From: Candidatus Methylomirabilota bacterium | Lineage (GTDB): Bacteria > Methylomirabilota > Methylomirabilia > Methylomirabilales > Methylomirabilaceae | Length of the DNA stretch: 64,000 nucleotides | Reading direction: 5' to 3' | Assembly (NCBI GenBank): GCA_028870115.1 | Contig: JAGWQH010000097.1 | Coordinates: 62,001-126,000 of the forward strand | In this document: one piece after another, positions 10,153 to 49,657 of the stretch | How positions within the stretch are numbered: position 1 is the first letter of the stretch | Layout: the number at the start of each line of letters is the position of its first letter | Notes under the pieces: generated by a model | Told to the model about the DNA's origin: nothing | The model's input: only the letters and a program-made list of their open reading frames with translations | Database searches by the model: none | Made by a program: the position numbers and the translations under genes

Positions 10153-10241
10153 CCCCCTCACCTTTATCCTCTCCCTACAGGGGAGAGGAGTCTTTTTTGA
10201 TGCCCCTCGCCCCCACTGGGGAGAGGGTGTAGGTGAGGGGG
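10153..10241. repeat. Intergenic palindromic repeat element, copy 1
   Basis: CCCCCTCACC at the left end pairs with GGTGAGGGGG at the right end. Inside are two smaller stems built from CCTCTCCC/GGGGAGAGG and CCCCTCGCCCCC/GGGGAGAGGG. The same architecture and much of the sequence recurs at 48085-48188. Lies between trmD and rplS, so it would be transcribed as a stable hairpin within the operon. Confidence 0.7.
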
Positions 10242-22454: not shown

Positions 22455-22549
22455 TGGCGGAGGCGTGTGAGGGTCGAACTCACCAACCCGGTATTAGCGG
22501 GTACGCTGGTTTTGAAGACCAGGAGGGCCACCGGGCCCATTCCGCCTCC
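22455..22549 (-). tRNA. selC: Selenocysteine tRNA (TCA anticodon)
   Basis: 95 bases with encoded CCA. The acceptor strand GGAGGCG pairs with CGCCTCC, and the D-arm is the extended GGGCC-loop-GGCCC with a four-base loop. The anticodon loop is CTTCAAA with anticodon TCA, a long variable arm (ACCCG/CGGGT) follows, and the T-arm is GTGAG-TTCGACC-CTCAC. Length, D-arm and anticodon together are diagnostic. Implies that the genome has SelA, SelB and at least one selenoprotein; none was found in the window. Confidence 0.93.
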
Positions 22550-43919: not shown

Positions 43920-43980
43920 TTGACACTACTCACGCCAACCGTTATTCTGATTTCGTTTGTCGATATTGATAATCGTTTTC
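43920..43980 (+). promoter_or_regulatory. Promoter and Fur box of the fur-like gene
   Basis: TTGACA (43920-43925), 17-base spacer, TATTCT (43943-43948). The 19-base GATATTGATAATCGTTTTC (43962-43980) matches the Fur consensus GATAATGATAATCATTATC at 16 positions. It lies between the expected transcription start and the ATG at 43993, where bound Fur would block transcription. Confidence 0.75.
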
Positions 43981-43992
43981 ACTTTCTTTACG

Positions 43993-44466
43993 ATGCAAGA
44001 AAAACTTCTCCAGTTCCAGCGGTACCTTAATCGAACCGGGCTGAAGGCAACCCGCCAGCGCGAGTTGATCGCACGAGCCTTCTTCGCTACTACGACGCAC
44101 GTTAGCGCCGAAGGTCTCTACCGTCGAGTGGGTGGTCGGCACCGGCGGATCGGTCTCGTCACCGTCTATCGGACGTTGAAGCTCCTGAAGGAGGCCGGGC
44201 TCGCGCATGAGCGACAGTTCGGCGAAGGGCGCGCCCTGTTCGAACACGCCTCCAGCGAGCACCACCACGATCACATTATCTGCACCGAGTGCGGCAAAAT
44301 CACCGAGTTCGAGAATTACGAGATCGAAGCGTTGCAGGAACAGATCGTCCGCAGACTCGGTTTCCTCATTCGGTATCATAAATTAGAGCTGTACGGCCTC
44401 TGCCGTGACTGCAGCGCAGGCGCCGACAGAAAACCGGGCACAGTCTCAGCGATGGGGTCCCGCTGA
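43993..44466 (+). CDS. fur: Fur-family metal-responsive repressor
   Basis: 157 residues from the ATG at 43993. The winged helix (about 1-80) has GLKATRQRELIARAFF and the recognition region RRIGLVTVYRTLKLLKEAG. The metal site has HHHDHIICTECGKI, with a second Cys pair in LYGLCRDCSAG. A Fur box directly upstream points to autoregulation. The His/Cys pattern and the adjoining FTR1 gene favour iron over zinc, though Zur cannot be excluded. The frame is open upstream to 43957 but the Fur box lies there. Confidence 0.9.
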   Translation: MQEKLLQFQRYLNRTGLKATRQRELIARAFFATTTHVSAEGLYRRVGGRHRRIGLVTVYRTLKLLKEAGLAHERQFGEGRALFEHASSEHHHDHIICTECGKITEFENYEIEALQEQIVRRLGFLIRYHKLELYGLCRDCSAGADRKPGTVSAMGSR

Positions 44467-44590: not shown

Positions 44591-45469
44591 ATGATCGCCG
44601 GAATGCTTATTACCTTCCGAGAGGGGCTTGAGGCTTTCCTGATTGTCGGAATCCTCCTGGGTTACCTGCGGAAGGCCGGCCACTCCGTCTGCAGCCGATA
44701 CGTCTGGGCCGGGACGATCGTGGGTGTGCTGGCGAGCATCGGACTGGCCTGGGGCTTTCAGGTACTCGCGATGGAGTTCGAGGGCCAACGGGCTGCTTGG
44801 TTTGAGGCAATAGCGTCCGGCTTCGCCGTACCGATCCTCAGTTACATGGTGCTCTATATGCAGCGCCACGCCCGCGGCCTGAAGACGCAAGCAGAAGCGA
44901 AGGCCGCGCTGGCGGTCACCACGGGTCAGGTGGTGGCGCTCGCCAGCCTTGCCTTCATCACTGTCCTGCGTGAGGGGCTGGAAACCGCTATATTTCTGAC
45001 CGCCCTTATGACTCGAGTGTCAAGCGGGGGGCTGATGCCGGGCGCGTTCCTGGGCTTGGCGGCGTCGGCGGTGATCGCCTACGCGATCTTTGCTTCAACG
45101 CTCCAACTCGACCTTCGACGCTTCTTCATTGTGACCAGCGTTCTGCTTATTTTCATCGCGGCGGGCCTGTGCGCCCATATTTTCATGGCCTTACACGAGG
45201 TCGGTTTTCATCTCCTGGGGATGACCGCCTGGAGCACTAAATCGATCCTGGACAGCGAGAGCCTCGTGGGGCGCCTCCTTCACGCCTTCATCGGGTATCA
45301 CGATGAGCCGACCATGATGGAGGTGCTGGCCTACTTCGGATATCTCGGAATTATGGGCTGGGCCTTCATGCGAGCGGTGAAAGCGTCGGCGCCCCCCAAG
45401 CCGGCCGCATGCGATGATCCCAGGTCGTGTATAGCCATCCGCCAAGAGGATAACCACGAGCTTATCTGA
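44591..45469 (+). CDS. FTR1-family iron permease
   Basis: 292 residues, seven predicted membrane spans. The two iron-relay motifs are REGLEAF (about 10-16) and REGLETA (about 127-133), in symmetric helices 1 and 4. FTR1 proteins import ferric iron that is oxidised and passed on by a ferroxidase (Fet3 in yeast, EfeO/EfeB in bacteria). Here the only trace of a multicopper oxidase is a relic after the porin gene. Downstream of the Fur repressor, AAGGGAGGACGAACG before the start. Regulation by Fur is likely. Confidence 0.92.
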   Translation: MIAGMLITFREGLEAFLIVGILLGYLRKAGHSVCSRYVWAGTIVGVLASIGLAWGFQVLAMEFEGQRAAWFEAIASGFAVPILSYMVLYMQRHARGLKTQAEAKAALAVTTGQVVALASLAFITVLREGLETAIFLTALMTRVSSGGLMPGAFLGLAASAVIAYAIFASTLQLDLRRFFIVTSVLLIFIAAGLCAHIFMALHEVGFHLLGMTAWSTKSILDSESLVGRLLHAFIGYHDEPTMMEVLAYFGYLGIMGWAFMRAVKASAPPKPAACDDPRSCIAIRQEDNHELI

Positions 45470-45545: not shown

Positions 45546-45681
45546 CACTGCCTCGGATGGCCATGTTGTCAATGGACCCCTCAGGGCCTTTTGCGCTTCT
45601 GGCCTCCGCAGCTTTTTAATTTTAGCAACCTGCCCTGGAGAAGTCTAGTTCCGTTTCGCTTTGAAGACAAAGGAGCGGCAC

Positions 45682-47259
45682 ATGAAACGATGGCAAACCG
45701 TATTTATTGCGTTAAGCATGGGAATAGCCCCCGTCGGGATTGCCGCCGGGGCGACGTTGGAAGACCTGGAAAAACAGCTTCAGGGACTTCAGAAGCAGAT
45801 CGATGAGATGAAGCAAGAGAAACAGCGACAGGATCAAAAGCTGCGTGAGGTGGAGGCGGCGCAGGCAGCGCACAAGGAGGAGATCACACGCGAGACGGCC
45901 TCCCTCAGGGAGCAGACGAGACGGGTCTCTTCGGAACTCCTGGACCGAGTTCGGATTGGCGGGTACGGCTCCGTCCGGTTCGAGGCGAATAACCTCAAGG
46001 AACAGCACAACAGCTTCACCTTTCGGCGGTTCGTCCTGACCGCGGACGCCAAGCCGGCTGACCCGATGCGGGTCTATATGGAACTCGAATTTGAACGATT
46101 CACTAATCTCGAACTCACTAGGGACACCACGCGGACGGAAGGCGGCCTGAAAGTGGAAGAAACAAATGGGGGGGGTGGTGAAATCTCGTTGGAGCAGCTC
46201 TGGTTCCAGTATGATCTCTACAATTGGCTGAAGTTTCGGACCGGTCAGGTCCTGGTCCCGGTGGGCCGGTTCAACATCAACCACGATGACAACCGCTGGA
46301 ACATCGCCCGCCGCTCCCTCGTCGATAGGGGCGTCCCAGTCCTGCCCGTGGATGCGGCCTGGCCGGAACTGGGAGCCGGGTTCCTAGGCGACATTTCCCT
46401 CGGAGAGTTGGGGAAACTCACGTATCAGGCCTACGTCGTGAATGGGGTCGCTCTAGGGGCCGAGGTGCAAAAGATCGCCCAAACCGGCGATTCGGATCGA
46501 CATAAGCTGGAACTGGGGGTCGCGTTCAGCCCAACCAGGGGAACAGCCAAGCTGGATTCGAAAGACAGCAAGGCCGTCGCAACCCGGGTCGCCTGGAGCC
46601 CGTTCCCCGGCCAGGAGATCGCGGGCTCCTTCTATTATGGGCGGTATACGCCGCAGTTTCTGGAAAGCCAATCGCTCTACGCCTTTGGCCTCGATGGCCT
46701 GACGACCATCGGACCGTTTGAGATCGAGGCGGAGTATGTGAACACCACCTTTAGAAACATCGATCGGGTAGCCAAGGACTTCGCCAAGGTTGTTGTCGAT
46801 CAATCCCTCAACATCCCCAGCAGCGTAAGTCCCAACTTCGACGCGGGGATCAATTTCGAGTTGGCGGACTTAGCCCGGAACAAGCACGGCTTCTGGATCG
46901 AGGGGCGGTACCGCTTCTGGCCGGAGCTCCTGACCAACACGGTCTTCGGCAAGTATTTCGAGAACCCGCAGCTTATTGCGGTCATCCGTGGGGAACAGGT
47001 CTGGCTCAACGGGCTGGTCCAGGAGGCGACATTTACGGGTGGAGCGCTCACCGCCTTCAAGCAGGAGAATCGCCAGATCCACCGGATCACGGCCGGATTG
47101 GCCTACAGGCCGACCCCGCTCGTGGTCTTTCAACTGGCCTATGAGTATACAAAGACCAACGACGGGCGAAGCCTGGCAGACGTCACCAATTTCCTACCCG
47201 CCCAGGCCGGGGAGGACCACGCCCACGCGGCCCTCCTTGGCGTATCCTTCGGCTTCTGA
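45682..47259 (+). CDS. Outer-membrane porin with N-terminal coiled coil
   Basis: 525 residues from the ATG at 45682, with AAGGAGCGG before it. After a signal peptide (KRWQTVFIALSMGIA) comes a heptad-rich coiled coil (about 28-85, LEKQLQGLQKQIDEMKQEK), then a beta-barrel of alternating strands beginning VRIGGYGSVRFEAN and ending with Phe (LLGVSFGF), the usual C-terminal residue for outer-membrane insertion. The type resembles OprO/OprP-like and other anion or general porins with a peptidoglycan-linked coiled coil. Next to FTR1, it may admit iron chelates; the substrate is inferred from position. Confidence 0.82.
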   Translation: MKRWQTVFIALSMGIAPVGIAAGATLEDLEKQLQGLQKQIDEMKQEKQRQDQKLREVEAAQAAHKEEITRETASLREQTRRVSSELLDRVRIGGYGSVRFEANNLKEQHNSFTFRRFVLTADAKPADPMRVYMELEFERFTNLELTRDTTRTEGGLKVEETNGGGGEISLEQLWFQYDLYNWLKFRTGQVLVPVGRFNINHDDNRWNIARRSLVDRGVPVLPVDAAWPELGAGFLGDISLGELGKLTYQAYVVNGVALGAEVQKIAQTGDSDRHKLELGVAFSPTRGTAKLDSKDSKAVATRVAWSPFPGQEIAGSFYYGRYTPQFLESQSLYAFGLDGLTTIGPFEIEAEYVNTTFRNIDRVAKDFAKVVVDQSLNIPSSVSPNFDAGINFELADLARNKHGFWIEGRYRFWPELLTNTVFGKYFENPQLIAVIRGEQVWLNGLVQEATFTGGALTAFKQENRQIHRITAGLAYRPTPLVVFQLAYEYTKTNDGRSLADVTNFLPAQAGEDHAHAALLGVSFGF

Positions 47260-47487: not shown

Positions 47488-48069
47488 ATGCTTTCCAGAC
47501 GGTGCTTTCTGACCACGCTGCTTACGCCGGCCCTTCTGGCGCTGAGACCGGACCTACTGAATGCACAGGAGGGGGTCTTTCTTTCCGAAGAGGAAGCCCC
47601 CAGGGCGGTCTTCCCGGAGGCCACACACTTCGAAAAGAAGGTCATCCCGTCAACGGAAGCCCTGCGGGAAAAGATGAAGGCCCTCCTGGGTCGCACGCGA
47701 CCATCCATCTGGGAGGATGCCTATGTCACCTACCTCGCGCGTCGAAACGACGAGCGCCTCGGCTTTGCCGTCATCACGGAGGAGATCGGCAAGCACCGCC
47801 CTATCACTTTTATTGTAGGCATCAAACCGGATGGAAAGGTCAAGGATGTCGCCCTGATGACCTATCGCGAGGCCTACGGCGGGGAGGTGCGGGACCGGCG
47901 TTTCATGCGCCAGTATCATGAGAAAGATCTCACTGCGCCTCTCTTGCCCTATCGAGATATCGTCAATATCGCTGGAGCTACCCTATCGGTCCAGTCGATC
48001 GGCCGAGGAGTTAGAAAGGTCCTGGCTCTGGCCCAACTGGTCCTCCTCAATGGGTCTCATCGGCCATGA
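47488..48069 (+). CDS. FMN-binding-domain exported protein
   Basis: 193 residues from the ATG at 47488 (RBS AAGGAAG). A signal peptide of Tat-like or Sec type (MLSRRCFLTTLLTPALLA) precedes the NqrC/RnfG-like FMN-binding domain at the C-terminal half: GKVKDVALMTYREAYGGEV and IAGATLSVQSIGRGVRK. The AGATLS element corresponds to the S/TGATxS/T site to which ApbE attaches FMN through Thr or Ser. The apbE gene follows with an ATGA overlap, so this is very probably its substrate. Role: extracytoplasmic electron carrier; the donor and acceptor are unknown. Confidence 0.85.
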   Translation: MLSRRCFLTTLLTPALLALRPDLLNAQEGVFLSEEEAPRAVFPEATHFEKKVIPSTEALREKMKALLGRTRPSIWEDAYVTYLARRNDERLGFAVITEEIGKHRPITFIVGIKPDGKVKDVALMTYREAYGGEVRDRRFMRQYHEKDLTAPLLPYRDIVNIAGATLSVQSIGRGVRKVLALAQLVLLNGSHRP

Positions 48070-49163
48070 GCATGAAAGCCTACGCCCCCTCACCTTCATC
48101 CTCTCCCCCAACTGGGGGAGAGGAGTCTTCTTTACTTCCCCTCGCCCCCGGGTACCCCTTGGGTGCGGAGAGGGCGAGGGGAAGGGGGATTGTAGAACCG
48201 GCGCCGGCTCCTATTCAAGAGATCCATTATGTCATGGGAACGCTGCTGGAGATCACGCTGTATCATGAGCCACGGGAGGCGGGCAAGCGGGTGCTGGCGA
48301 GATGTTTTCAGGAGGCCCGGCGACTGGAGGAGATCTTCTCAGCCCATGATGACGACAGCGACCTTAACCGGCTTAACCGACATGCAGGTCTCGGACCCGT
48401 CGAGATTAACCTGGAGCTCTGGTCAGCCCTGACGATCGCGCTCTCCCTGGGCCGAGAAACCGACGGGGCAATAGATATCACCATCGGACCTCTCATCGAC
48501 CTCTGGAGCGCGGCTGAAGAACAGGGTATTATGCCATCCCCCGCGTTGGTGGCGAAGGCCCTCAACCGGACAGGGATCTCCAGTGTCCAACTTCTTCCGG
48601 ATGGAAGAGTAGAACTGAGACGCGCCGGGATGCGGCTGGATCTGGGTGGAGTCGGCAAGGGATACGCTGTAGACCGGCTGAGCGCGATTCTGGCGCAGGA
48701 GGGTGTTACGAGCGCATTTATCAACTTCGGACGGAGCAGCCTTACGGCGATAGGATCACCTCCTGAGCAGAAGCATTGGCCTGTCCTGCTCAGAAGTGAC
48801 GATGGCGCGCCTATCGGTCTCGCGTATCTGAAGGATCAATACCTCGGCGTCTCCGGAAGCTTCGGTCACTCCTTTGAGATCGGAAGGGTCCGGTTGAGCC
48901 ATCTGATCAATCCGCAGGACGGCTCCCCGCTCCGCCATCCCAGCCTGGGCGTGGCCGCGGCCCGGACTGCGACTGAGGCAGAAGTCCTTGCCAAGGCCAT
49001 CATCATCCTCGATGAGGCACAAGGTTTTGCCGTCGTCAGCCGGTTCCCAGACACCGAAGGCTTATTGGCTCGCTCGAACGGAAGGCAGGTCAGCACCCCA
49101 GGATTCGTTGAAACGATCCGCTTCGAGGCCTCAGTAACGACTTCGAGGGAGGGCATCGGTTGA
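48066..49163 (+). CDS. apbE: FAD:protein FMN transferase (ApbE), N-terminus running through a repeat
   Basis: Transfers FMN from FAD to Thr/Ser of exported proteins. MGTLLEITLYH, FSAHDDDSDLNRLNRH, the catalytic segment RLDLGGVGKGYAVDRLSAIL and AARTATEAEVLAKAIIIL are the family signatures. The first 45 or so residues (SPSSSPPTGGEESSLLPL and on) are coded by the palindromic repeat 48085-48188 and are not ApbE-like; no signal peptide or lipobox is seen, though ApbE is normally exported. Either the repeat has displaced the export signal, or the start lies at an inner codon such as the ATG at 48231. The stop overlaps the next gene by four bases. Confidence 0.88.
   Translation: MSMKAYAPSPSSSPPTGGEESSLLPLAPGYPLGAERARGRGIVEPAPAPIQEIHYVMGTLLEITLYHEPREAGKRVLARCFQEARRLEEIFSAHDDDSDLNRLNRHAGLGPVEINLELWSALTIALSLGRETDGAIDITIGPLIDLWSAAEEQGIMPSPALVAKALNRTGISSVQLLPDGRVELRRAGMRLDLGGVGKGYAVDRLSAILAQEGVTSAFINFGRSSLTAIGSPPEQKHWPVLLRSDDGAPIGLAYLKDQYLGVSGSFGHSFEIGRVRLSHLINPQDGSPLRHPSLGVAAARTATEAEVLAKAIIILDEAQGFAVVSRFPDTEGLLARSNGRQVSTPGFVETIRFEASVTTSREGIG
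48085..48188. repeat. Palindromic repeat element, copy 2, inside apbE 5' end
   Basis: Same family as 10153-10241: begins CCCCCTCACCTTCATCCTCT, has CCCCCAACTGGGGG and GAGAGGAGTCTT, and closes with GAGGGCGAGGGGAAGGGGG. Differences include a KpnI-like GGTACC inner loop. Confidence 0.7.
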
Positions 49164-49657
49164 AAAACTTCACCTACCCCGCCTACAGGCTCTCGGCCGC
49201 CAGCCGGGAGGTCAAGATCATCTACACCGGCTTCTTGATCTTTATCGCAGTGGGGATGCTCACCATCGGCCTCTATCAGTTCAAGCGGATCGGCGCCACC
49301 TATGATCTGGTCGTAGCCTACTATCGCGGGGGGGAATTGGGGCAGGAGATGACCTATCCCAAGACCTTCACTCAACTCCTCGAGACCACGCACTTCCACG
49401 CCATCATCATGGGGATCTCGTTCCTTACTCTGGCCCACCTCTTTATCGCTACCGGGCTCGGTCCCCGAATCAAATGGTCCGTTATCGGCCTGGCGTTTTT
49501 CTCCTCCCAAGCTGATATCGCCGGGCCATGGCTCATTCGGTATCTCTCTCCAGCCTTCGCCCTCTTACAGCTTTTCGCCTGGTTCGGGATGTGGTTGGGG
49601 TATGGCGCATTGATACTCCTTCCACTGTATGAGATGTGGGGCAAAAGCCGGAAGTAA
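49160..49657 (+). CDS. Four-helix membrane protein linked to ApbE
   Basis: 165 residues. Predicted spans at about 20-42, 78-98, 104-121 and 128-152. Conserved-looking His residues lie at TTHFHAIIMG and TLAHLF in the second span, which could carry heme or metal, but no family was recognised. The start is TTG overlapping the apbE stop (TTGA), so translation is coupled. Being the last gene of the FMN-binding/ApbE unit, it may be the membrane electron donor of the flavoprotein; that is inference. Confidence 0.75.
   Translation: MKNFTYPAYRLSAASREVKIIYTGFLIFIAVGMLTIGLYQFKRIGATYDLVVAYYRGGELGQEMTYPKTFTQLLETTHFHAIIMGISFLTLAHLFIATGLGPRIKWSVIGLAFFSSQADIAGPWLIRYLSPAFALLQLFAWFGMWLGYGALILLPLYEMWGKSRK

Follow-up and report, generated by a model that had tools for sequence, protein, structure and literature searches.

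A palindromic repeat lengthens an already leaderless ApbE encoded beside a Tat-type FMN_bind protein in a Methylomirabilota bacterium

The ApbE gene of the window (the whole 64,000-nucleotide stretch of DNA analysed here) carries behind its start codon a palindromic insertion that its orthologs lack, and no signal is recognisable at the N-terminus of its product or of the products of seven orthologs. The FMN_bind protein encoded immediately upstream bears a Tat-type motif, a single ApbE was found in every genome of the genus (15 in all), and the gene is under purifying selection. The explanation we favour, and consider likely, combines a neutral-looking MITE-like insertion behind a coupled start with an already leaderless, cytoplasmic ApbE that loads FMN_bind before its folded export by Tat. 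In a single lineage a dispersed palindromic element has landed immediately after the start codon of ApbE, which is coupled to translation of the gene before it, adding 129 nt (43 codons) in frame and thereby a Ser/Pro/Gly-rich tail predicted to be disordered. Independently of the insertion, we infer, ApbE would come from a family that was already leaderless, would act catalytically in the cytoplasm and would attach FMN from FAD to the neighbouring FMN_bind as the latter folds. The loaded protein would then be exported folded via Tat and would probably serve the Fur/FTR1 iron-uptake locus, and in a sister clade ApbE itself would be exported. The repeat is ordinary; what deserves attention is the mirror-image arrangement of the modules and the change in the metal site of ApbE.

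The window belongs to the genome of a Methylomirabilota (NC10) bacterium (G000, 122 contigs, 2.81 Mb), and the locus runs in the order Fur, FTR1 permease, porin-like protein, multicopper-oxidase remnant, FMN_bind, ApbE and small hydrophobic protein (Table 1). The porin-like protein matched no Pfam or NCBIfam family and the small hydrophobic protein no Pfam family. Multicopper oxidase frames of 394-415 aa in three relatives (G007, G011 and G012) end where the window has its 36-codon remnant, and this comparison of sequences suggests that a probable ferroxidase partner of FTR1 has been lost in the lineage of the window. The position of FMN_bind near FTR1 resembles the P19/FTR1 iron-assimilation clusters and extracytosolic flavinylation loci in the available portion of PMC8238504; unlike the P19/FTR1 clusters of that portion, no P19 was present among the scanned window genes and ApbE is leaderless.

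Table 1. Features of the locus and of the repeat family in the window (window coordinates).
Feature	Position	Strand	Basis
Second copy of the repeat family	10153..10241	+	No recognised gene there, only a mechanical 86-aa ORF
Fur-family regulator, heads the locus	43957..44466	+	Pfam PF01475, E 3.3e-35
FTR1/EfeU-type iron permease	44591..45469	+	Pfam PF03239, E 2.9e-47; NCBIfam EfeU below cut-off
Porin-like outer-membrane protein (name inferred)	45661..47259	+	Homologous ORF in the same module of related genomes
Multicopper oxidase C-terminus remnant, 36 codons	47311..47421	+	Pfam Cu-oxidase_2, E 1.6e-8
FMN_bind (RnfG-like), probable flavinylation target	47488..48069	+	Pfam PF04205, E 1.7e-6, scanned from the 47431 start
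Tat-type signal MLSRRCFLTTLLTPALLALRPDLLNA of FMN_bind	47488..47565	+	SRRxFL motif
Thr165 codon in the AGATLS motif of FMN_bind, candidate FMN attachment site	47980..47982	+	Motif alignment; motif definition from PMC12052999 (available part)
Leaderless ApbE of the FAD:protein FMN transferase family; its start codon overlaps the stop of FMN_bind	48066..49163	+	Pfam PF02424, E 5.5e-58
Palindromic MITE-like repeat, in frame as ApbE residues ~7-41	48085..48188	+	Inverted arms, blastn, fold, covariance model
Conserved EIHYVMGTLLEITLY, where the ordered ApbE domain begins	48219..48263	+	13/15 codons for the same amino acid in 7 genomes
Altered Mg-site motif of ApbE, E306 and K310 (family: Asp, Thr)	48981..48995	+	Alignments
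Small, very hydrophobic protein, four membrane helices by eye, conserved HFH...HL[FV]	49160..49657	+	Module partner

An earlier note on this DNA had described a repeat at 48085-48188, related to 10153-10241 and translated as a Ser/Pro/Gly-rich stretch in front of ApbE, and all of this is borne out. The repeat has inverted arms (48085-48106/48167-48188 and 48135-48147/48172-48184) enclosing a perfect internal hairpin (48099-48124), and its predicted RNA fold of -68.5 kcal/mol (z -4.38) was equalled by 0 of 200 dinucleotide shuffles. It lies in the ApbE frame, which is open to 49163 and whose ATG overlaps the FMN_bind stop (ATGA). Comparison with the nearest ortholog, that of G010 (79% identical in the aligned part), revealed 51 versus 8 codons before the motif EIHYV, the additional codons being free of stops. 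The Pfam domain starts at residue 57; in an AlphaFold2 model residues 1-42 have pLDDT<50, the first strand spans residues 50-56, and order in the domain sets in at about residue 50. The 43 added codons are thus predicted by the model to form a disordered tail.

The element is one of many. A blastn search of the repeat against its own genome gave 17 matches at E<=1e-3, including window positions 10153-10214 (83% identity). With a covariance model, of which 150 of 1444 first-look candidates were scored, at least 33 matches were obtained in the window genome, both strands counted, corresponding to 13 distinct places among the matches listed, and matches were present in all 15 genomes of the genus. 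Resemblance to the family reaches 5′ of 48085, running through CATGRNCATGAANGTNCG. When CATGRNCATGAANGTNCGNN plus the first ten bases of the palindrome was searched with up to 3 mismatches, 9 sites were found in 4 of the 15 genomes (0 with a reversed-pattern control), of which 4 are in the window genome, including the ApbE site itself with 3 mismatches. The CATGA common to the family coincides with the native stop-start overlap at ApbE, and the element probably spans about 48065-48190. Being short, dispersed and multicopy with terminal inverted repeats, it has the features of a MITE or palindromic element. No target-site duplication was recognised by eye, and Rfam gave no match for the repeat, the window matches at gathering scores being two tRNA families only. 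The window genome contains one Y1_Tnp gene (IS200/RAYT superfamily), and no transposase mobilising the repeat was identified.

Other genes are extended in frame by the same family. A 456-aa ORF (L043 1498-2868, equal to L055 1502-2872, on contig G000:C104) begins at an ATGA overlap and takes the repeat as its N-terminus, in front of a pilin-like hydrophobic segment, downstream of a gene with a pilin-type N-methylation motif. The repeat forms the C-terminus of an RsmA-type methyltransferase ORF of the window genome (L041 620-1588) and, in G006, of an FtsJ-type methyltransferase (L057 692-1747) and an MgsA-type ATPase (L053 1577-2980). MITE-like elements and the palindromic elements of Rickettsia are known to extend genes in this way, as described in the accessible sections of PMC2229807. 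Like those elements and other in-frame bacterial MITEs, the present family is short, dispersed and palindromic, has at least one stop-free frame, and occurs both in intergenic copies and in fusions to conserved genes; unlike the Rickettsia elements of those sections, it has another sequence and a Methylomirabilota host. In itself the repeat is of lesser importance, being another palindromic mobile element that lengthens a protein terminus with no visible harm.

The assembly has 122 contigs and repeats are weak points of assemblies, so that the in-frame repeat might be an artefact; equally, translation of ApbE might begin further downstream, at a TTG inside the repeat or at the ATG at 48234. 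Both sides of the junction argue against this, the FMN_bind and ApbE flanks being syntenic with the orthologs on a contig of 146 kb. The only ATG, GTG or TTG starts 5′ of EIHYV are 48066, 48072 and the single TTG in the repeat, and EIHYV, which lies upstream of ATG 48234, shows only synonymous changes in 7/7 genomes. Since this segment is conserved as protein, the start is hard to move past the repeat, which makes the earlier note's option of a start elsewhere unlikely, and we give artefact and downstream start together a very low probability.

We then asked whether an export signal is visible at any ApbE start option, judging signals by motif and crude hydropathy (best 13-residue mean on the Kyte-Doolittle scale). 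As the earlier note had stated, none is recognisable. The best mean was 0.85 with the start at 48066 or 48072. It rose to 1.28 with a start anywhere from TTG 48159 to 48222, the peak then being formed by the first strands of the domain itself, and did not exceed 1.57 when the start was placed within the domain; none of the options in the window has a twin-Arg motif. Eight exported ApbEs of sister species gave 1.63-2.11, all with RRRF[LI].

The absence of a signal is shared by the orthologs. Six of these are from the same genus (G004, G007, G008, G010, G011 and G012; with the window genome they make up the 7 copies of clade A), and the outgroup G033, of the same order (apparently JACQHM010000164.1), is a single locus from an ApbE search of genome contigs. 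All seven start at the overlap with the FMN_bind stop, 8-25 codons before the conserved EIHYVMGTLL (8 codons before EIHYV in G004, G007 and G010; 25 in G008, G011 and G012); the G033 ORF does so with a GTG and has the N-terminus MILPRLQPIFPRFLRKVFAPRPIQEIHYVMGTLL. Their N-terminal hydropathy maxima lie between -0.45 and 0.70. Judged by motif and hydropathy, neither the signal peptide nor the lipobox of an extracytosolic ApbE was found in the window start options, the 7/7 clade-A copies or G033. This bears directly on the suggestion that the repeat replaced an N-terminal export signal and stranded ApbE in the cytoplasm, which would suit the site of the insertion and the usual presence of a signal peptide in ApbE (PMC12052999, in its available part). 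With 6/6 congeneric orthologs and G033 free of the repeat yet already leaderless at the same coupled start, there was no signal to replace; moreover, the exported sister ApbEs are merely 25-27% identical (6 of 8 compared) and their module is ordered differently. We regard replacement of a signal as extremely improbable.

The FMN_bind protein is the only one found in the window genome with PF04205, and its N-terminus has the features of a Tat substrate: SRRxFL, a moderately hydrophobic core and an AxA-like end (LNA, by eye). SRRxFL is visible in 6/7 clade-A copies, the seventh (G010) being cut by the contig end at RRRFL, and the FMN_bind of G033 begins MLTRRRFL. These Tat-type signals have hydropathy of 1.82-2.06 versus 2.29-3.53 for the Sec-type signals of sister species. 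TatC was found in 13/15 genomes of the genus including that of the window, the two misses being genomes 83% complete. The conserved MLSRRCFLTTLLTPALLALRPDLLNA signal and the presence of TatC support, short of proving it, the earlier note's other option, that flavin transfer precedes Tat export of the partner. The only solved structure found to resemble the protein was RnfG (7zc6_G, E 0.0031). Its putative attachment site deviates from the ApbE-target motif D-x-x-[ST]-G-A-[ST]: in DIVNIAGATLS, GAT is kept, Asp stands two residues further upstream, and Ala occupies the position for which the consensus in the available text of PMC12052999 has Ser/Thr. The four Proteobacterial relatives whose motif was read, out of five, have D[IV]xN[IV]SGATLS, as do G041, G049, G053 and G063.

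Membership of ApbE in its family is evident from sequence and fold, its PF02424 match (E 5.5e-58) being accompanied by alignment to solved ApbE/Ftp structures at Z 31.5-37.9 (VIA-align; rows 21 and below, with Z under 7, were left out), with 4ig1 the best at Z 37.9 over 310 aligned residues and 2.2 A for the AlphaFold2 model. The Thr of the family motif ADxxxT is a metal ligand. Its Asp is described in the literature as a metal ligand or a member of a triad, and according to the accessible text of PMC12052999 a Ser and a His have catalytic roles. The latter two (S263 and H279) are invariant in a 14-sequence alignment. The metal site reads AExxxK in 7/7 clade-A copies; G033 has the Glu and keeps the Thr, and Asp and Thr are both kept in 8/8 sister ApbEs. 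(The metal-site residue numbers D284/T288 were not found in PMC4767422.) The GG[DN] motif is likewise GRSS in 7/7 clade-A copies, and in place of SGSF two copies (G007, G010) have SES[FY] and two others (G004, G011) SSSF. With three motifs altered, transferase activity is not certain.

The enzyme of clade A may accordingly be catalytically altered or inactive, serving for instance as a flavin carrier or FAD-binding chaperone, in which case FMN_bind would hold FMN non-covalently or be flavinylated otherwise. Apart from the two motifs changed throughout the clade, the SG motif degenerate in 4/7 copies and the Ala in the target motif of FMN_bind point this way. The invariant Ser and His and the conserved GAT of FMN_bind speak for activity, as does the PF02424 search, which detected a single ApbE in every one of the 15 genus genomes and no second one in that of the window. 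In addition, dN/dS of clade-A ApbE is 0.19-0.29 in 21/21 pairs, indicating purifying selection and hence a gene that is maintained and a protein that is functional in some way. Taken together, loss or alteration of activity appears unlikely to us, and a transferase acting before Tat export remains the explanation we prefer.

Comparison within the genus revealed two kinds of module. Seven genomes combine a Tat-type FMN_bind with a leaderless ApbE, and seven sister genomes a Sec-type FMN_bind with an RRRF[LI] Tat-type ApbE; in an eighth sister genome (G003) the ApbE is Tat-type and no FMN_bind was found. PF04205 detected at most one FMN_bind per genus genome and missed G001, G003 and G006, those of G001 and G006 being recovered by a protein query, which in G010 also picked up an additional 56-residue piece where a contig ends. 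The two types of module correspond in their porin, their FMN_bind, their small hydrophobic protein and their ApbE, which identifies them as homologous. The small protein has homologs in both, the histidines of its HFH...HL[FV] being kept in most relatives, and we note it as a candidate for a haem-binding protein that exchanges electrons with the flavinylated one. Outside the genus, G066 and G067 have the arrangement of Sec-type FMN_bind and Tat-type ApbE by eye.

Two mirror-image modules in one genus may mean that flavinylation has switched membrane side, with Tat always carrying the partner that was flavin-loaded in the cytoplasm. In one form, FMN would be loaded onto a Tat substrate inside the cell by a leaderless ApbE whose metal site is rebuilt (Lys for Thr); in the other, ApbE would travel by Tat, possibly with FAD, and load a Sec-exported target outside. 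We put this forward tentatively, as a plausible reading that may well prove wrong. If true, modules of the window type would need no export of FAD, whose delivery to extracytosolic ApbE is raised as a question in the accessible part of a review (PMC12052999).

A strict rule by which a Tat-type target implies a leaderless ApbE and a Sec-type target an exported one was also considered and rejected. It holds within the genus and is broken by G063 of the same phylum, in which a leaderless ApbE adjoins a Sec-type FMN_bind, and by the Proteobacterial modules described below. What survives, as a pattern read from a small and related sample, is the one-way statement that a Tat-type target is accompanied by a leaderless ApbE, as in 9/9 readable Tat-type FMN_bind modules of the phylum (7 in the genus, G033 and G053, the ApbE frame of G053 being broken further on). 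Two metagenome-assembled genomes, G041 and G049, have a broken start of FMN_bind and were left unclassed.

On plasmids of Novosphingobium, Methylocystis, Bradyrhizobium, Ideonella and Sphingomonas (L097-L101), a leaderless ApbE adjoins a Sec-type FMN_bind, and the metal site of these five ApbEs is ADA[LM]TK[VI]. The five modules represent 5 of 8 matching records, the other 3 being Bradyrhizobium with the same match; a plasmid search with the sister-type FMN_bind yielded nothing beyond the 4 Bradyrhizobium records. Searching plasmids with ApbE gave 530 records, of which 8 were taken as a selection among the matches listed rather than a sample; one of these, L106 from Cupriavidus, is unannotated and is left aside here. 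Four of the 8 encode a NosX-type ApbE with a Tat-type N-terminus. Leaderless ApbEs were seen beside DUF2271/PepSY genes on a Rhizobium plasmid and likewise in Actibacterium, where the DUF2271 protein encoded in the same operon as ApbE is Sec-type, and, in a Pantoea plasmid module, beside a flavocytochrome c without a signal.

The leaderless ApbEs beside Sec-type targets indicate that leaderlessness does not require a Tat target. In these systems Sec might accept a chain that is loaded yet still unfolded, or ApbE might exit in some other way. Tat piggy-backing is known for other protein pairs. The ApbE of the window could thus reach the periplasm without a classical signal, or through Tat together with FMN_bind, and work outside, a route that would most easily account for the Proteobacterial cases if the enzyme exits, as would the passage of loaded chains through Sec. 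Sister species with a Sec-type target, however, place a Tat-type signal on ApbE, so export there uses a signal, and we judge periplasmic action of the window enzyme to be improbable. Loading in the cytoplasm has a known counterpart.

ApbE flavinylation is usually regarded as an extracytosolic step. In Klebsiella pneumoniae a cytosolic ApbE serves a cytosolic fumarate reductase, and truncated ApbEs work in the cytosol (PMC12052999, as far as its available text goes). Like the Klebsiella enzyme, the ApbE of the window has no signal peptide; unlike the Klebsiella target described in that text, which stays cytosolic, the window FMN_bind carries a Tat-type export signal. The Pantoea module is of the Klebsiella type, with a leaderless ApbE encoded beside such a target. 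In Paracoccus, according to the accessible part of PMC7660919, NosX and NirX are Tat-exported ApbEs and a third homologue is predicted to be cytoplasmic. The sister-species modules share with NosX/NirX both the ApbE family and the involvement of Tat, and the window differs from what is described there in having the Tat signal on FMN_bind instead of ApbE. The literature search found no published report of a leaderless ApbE paired with a Tat-type FMN_bind. A large flavinylation survey excluded genes for which neither a signal nor a lipidation site was predicted, as stated in the available portion of PMC8238504, and leaderless ApbEs beside exported targets therefore fall outside it. With matched modules, opposite signals and one ApbE found per genome, flavinylation before Tat export becomes directly testable.

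Elsewhere in the window, a tRNA-Sec gene was observed at 22459-22549 on the minus strand, suggesting that the organism probably uses selenocysteine.
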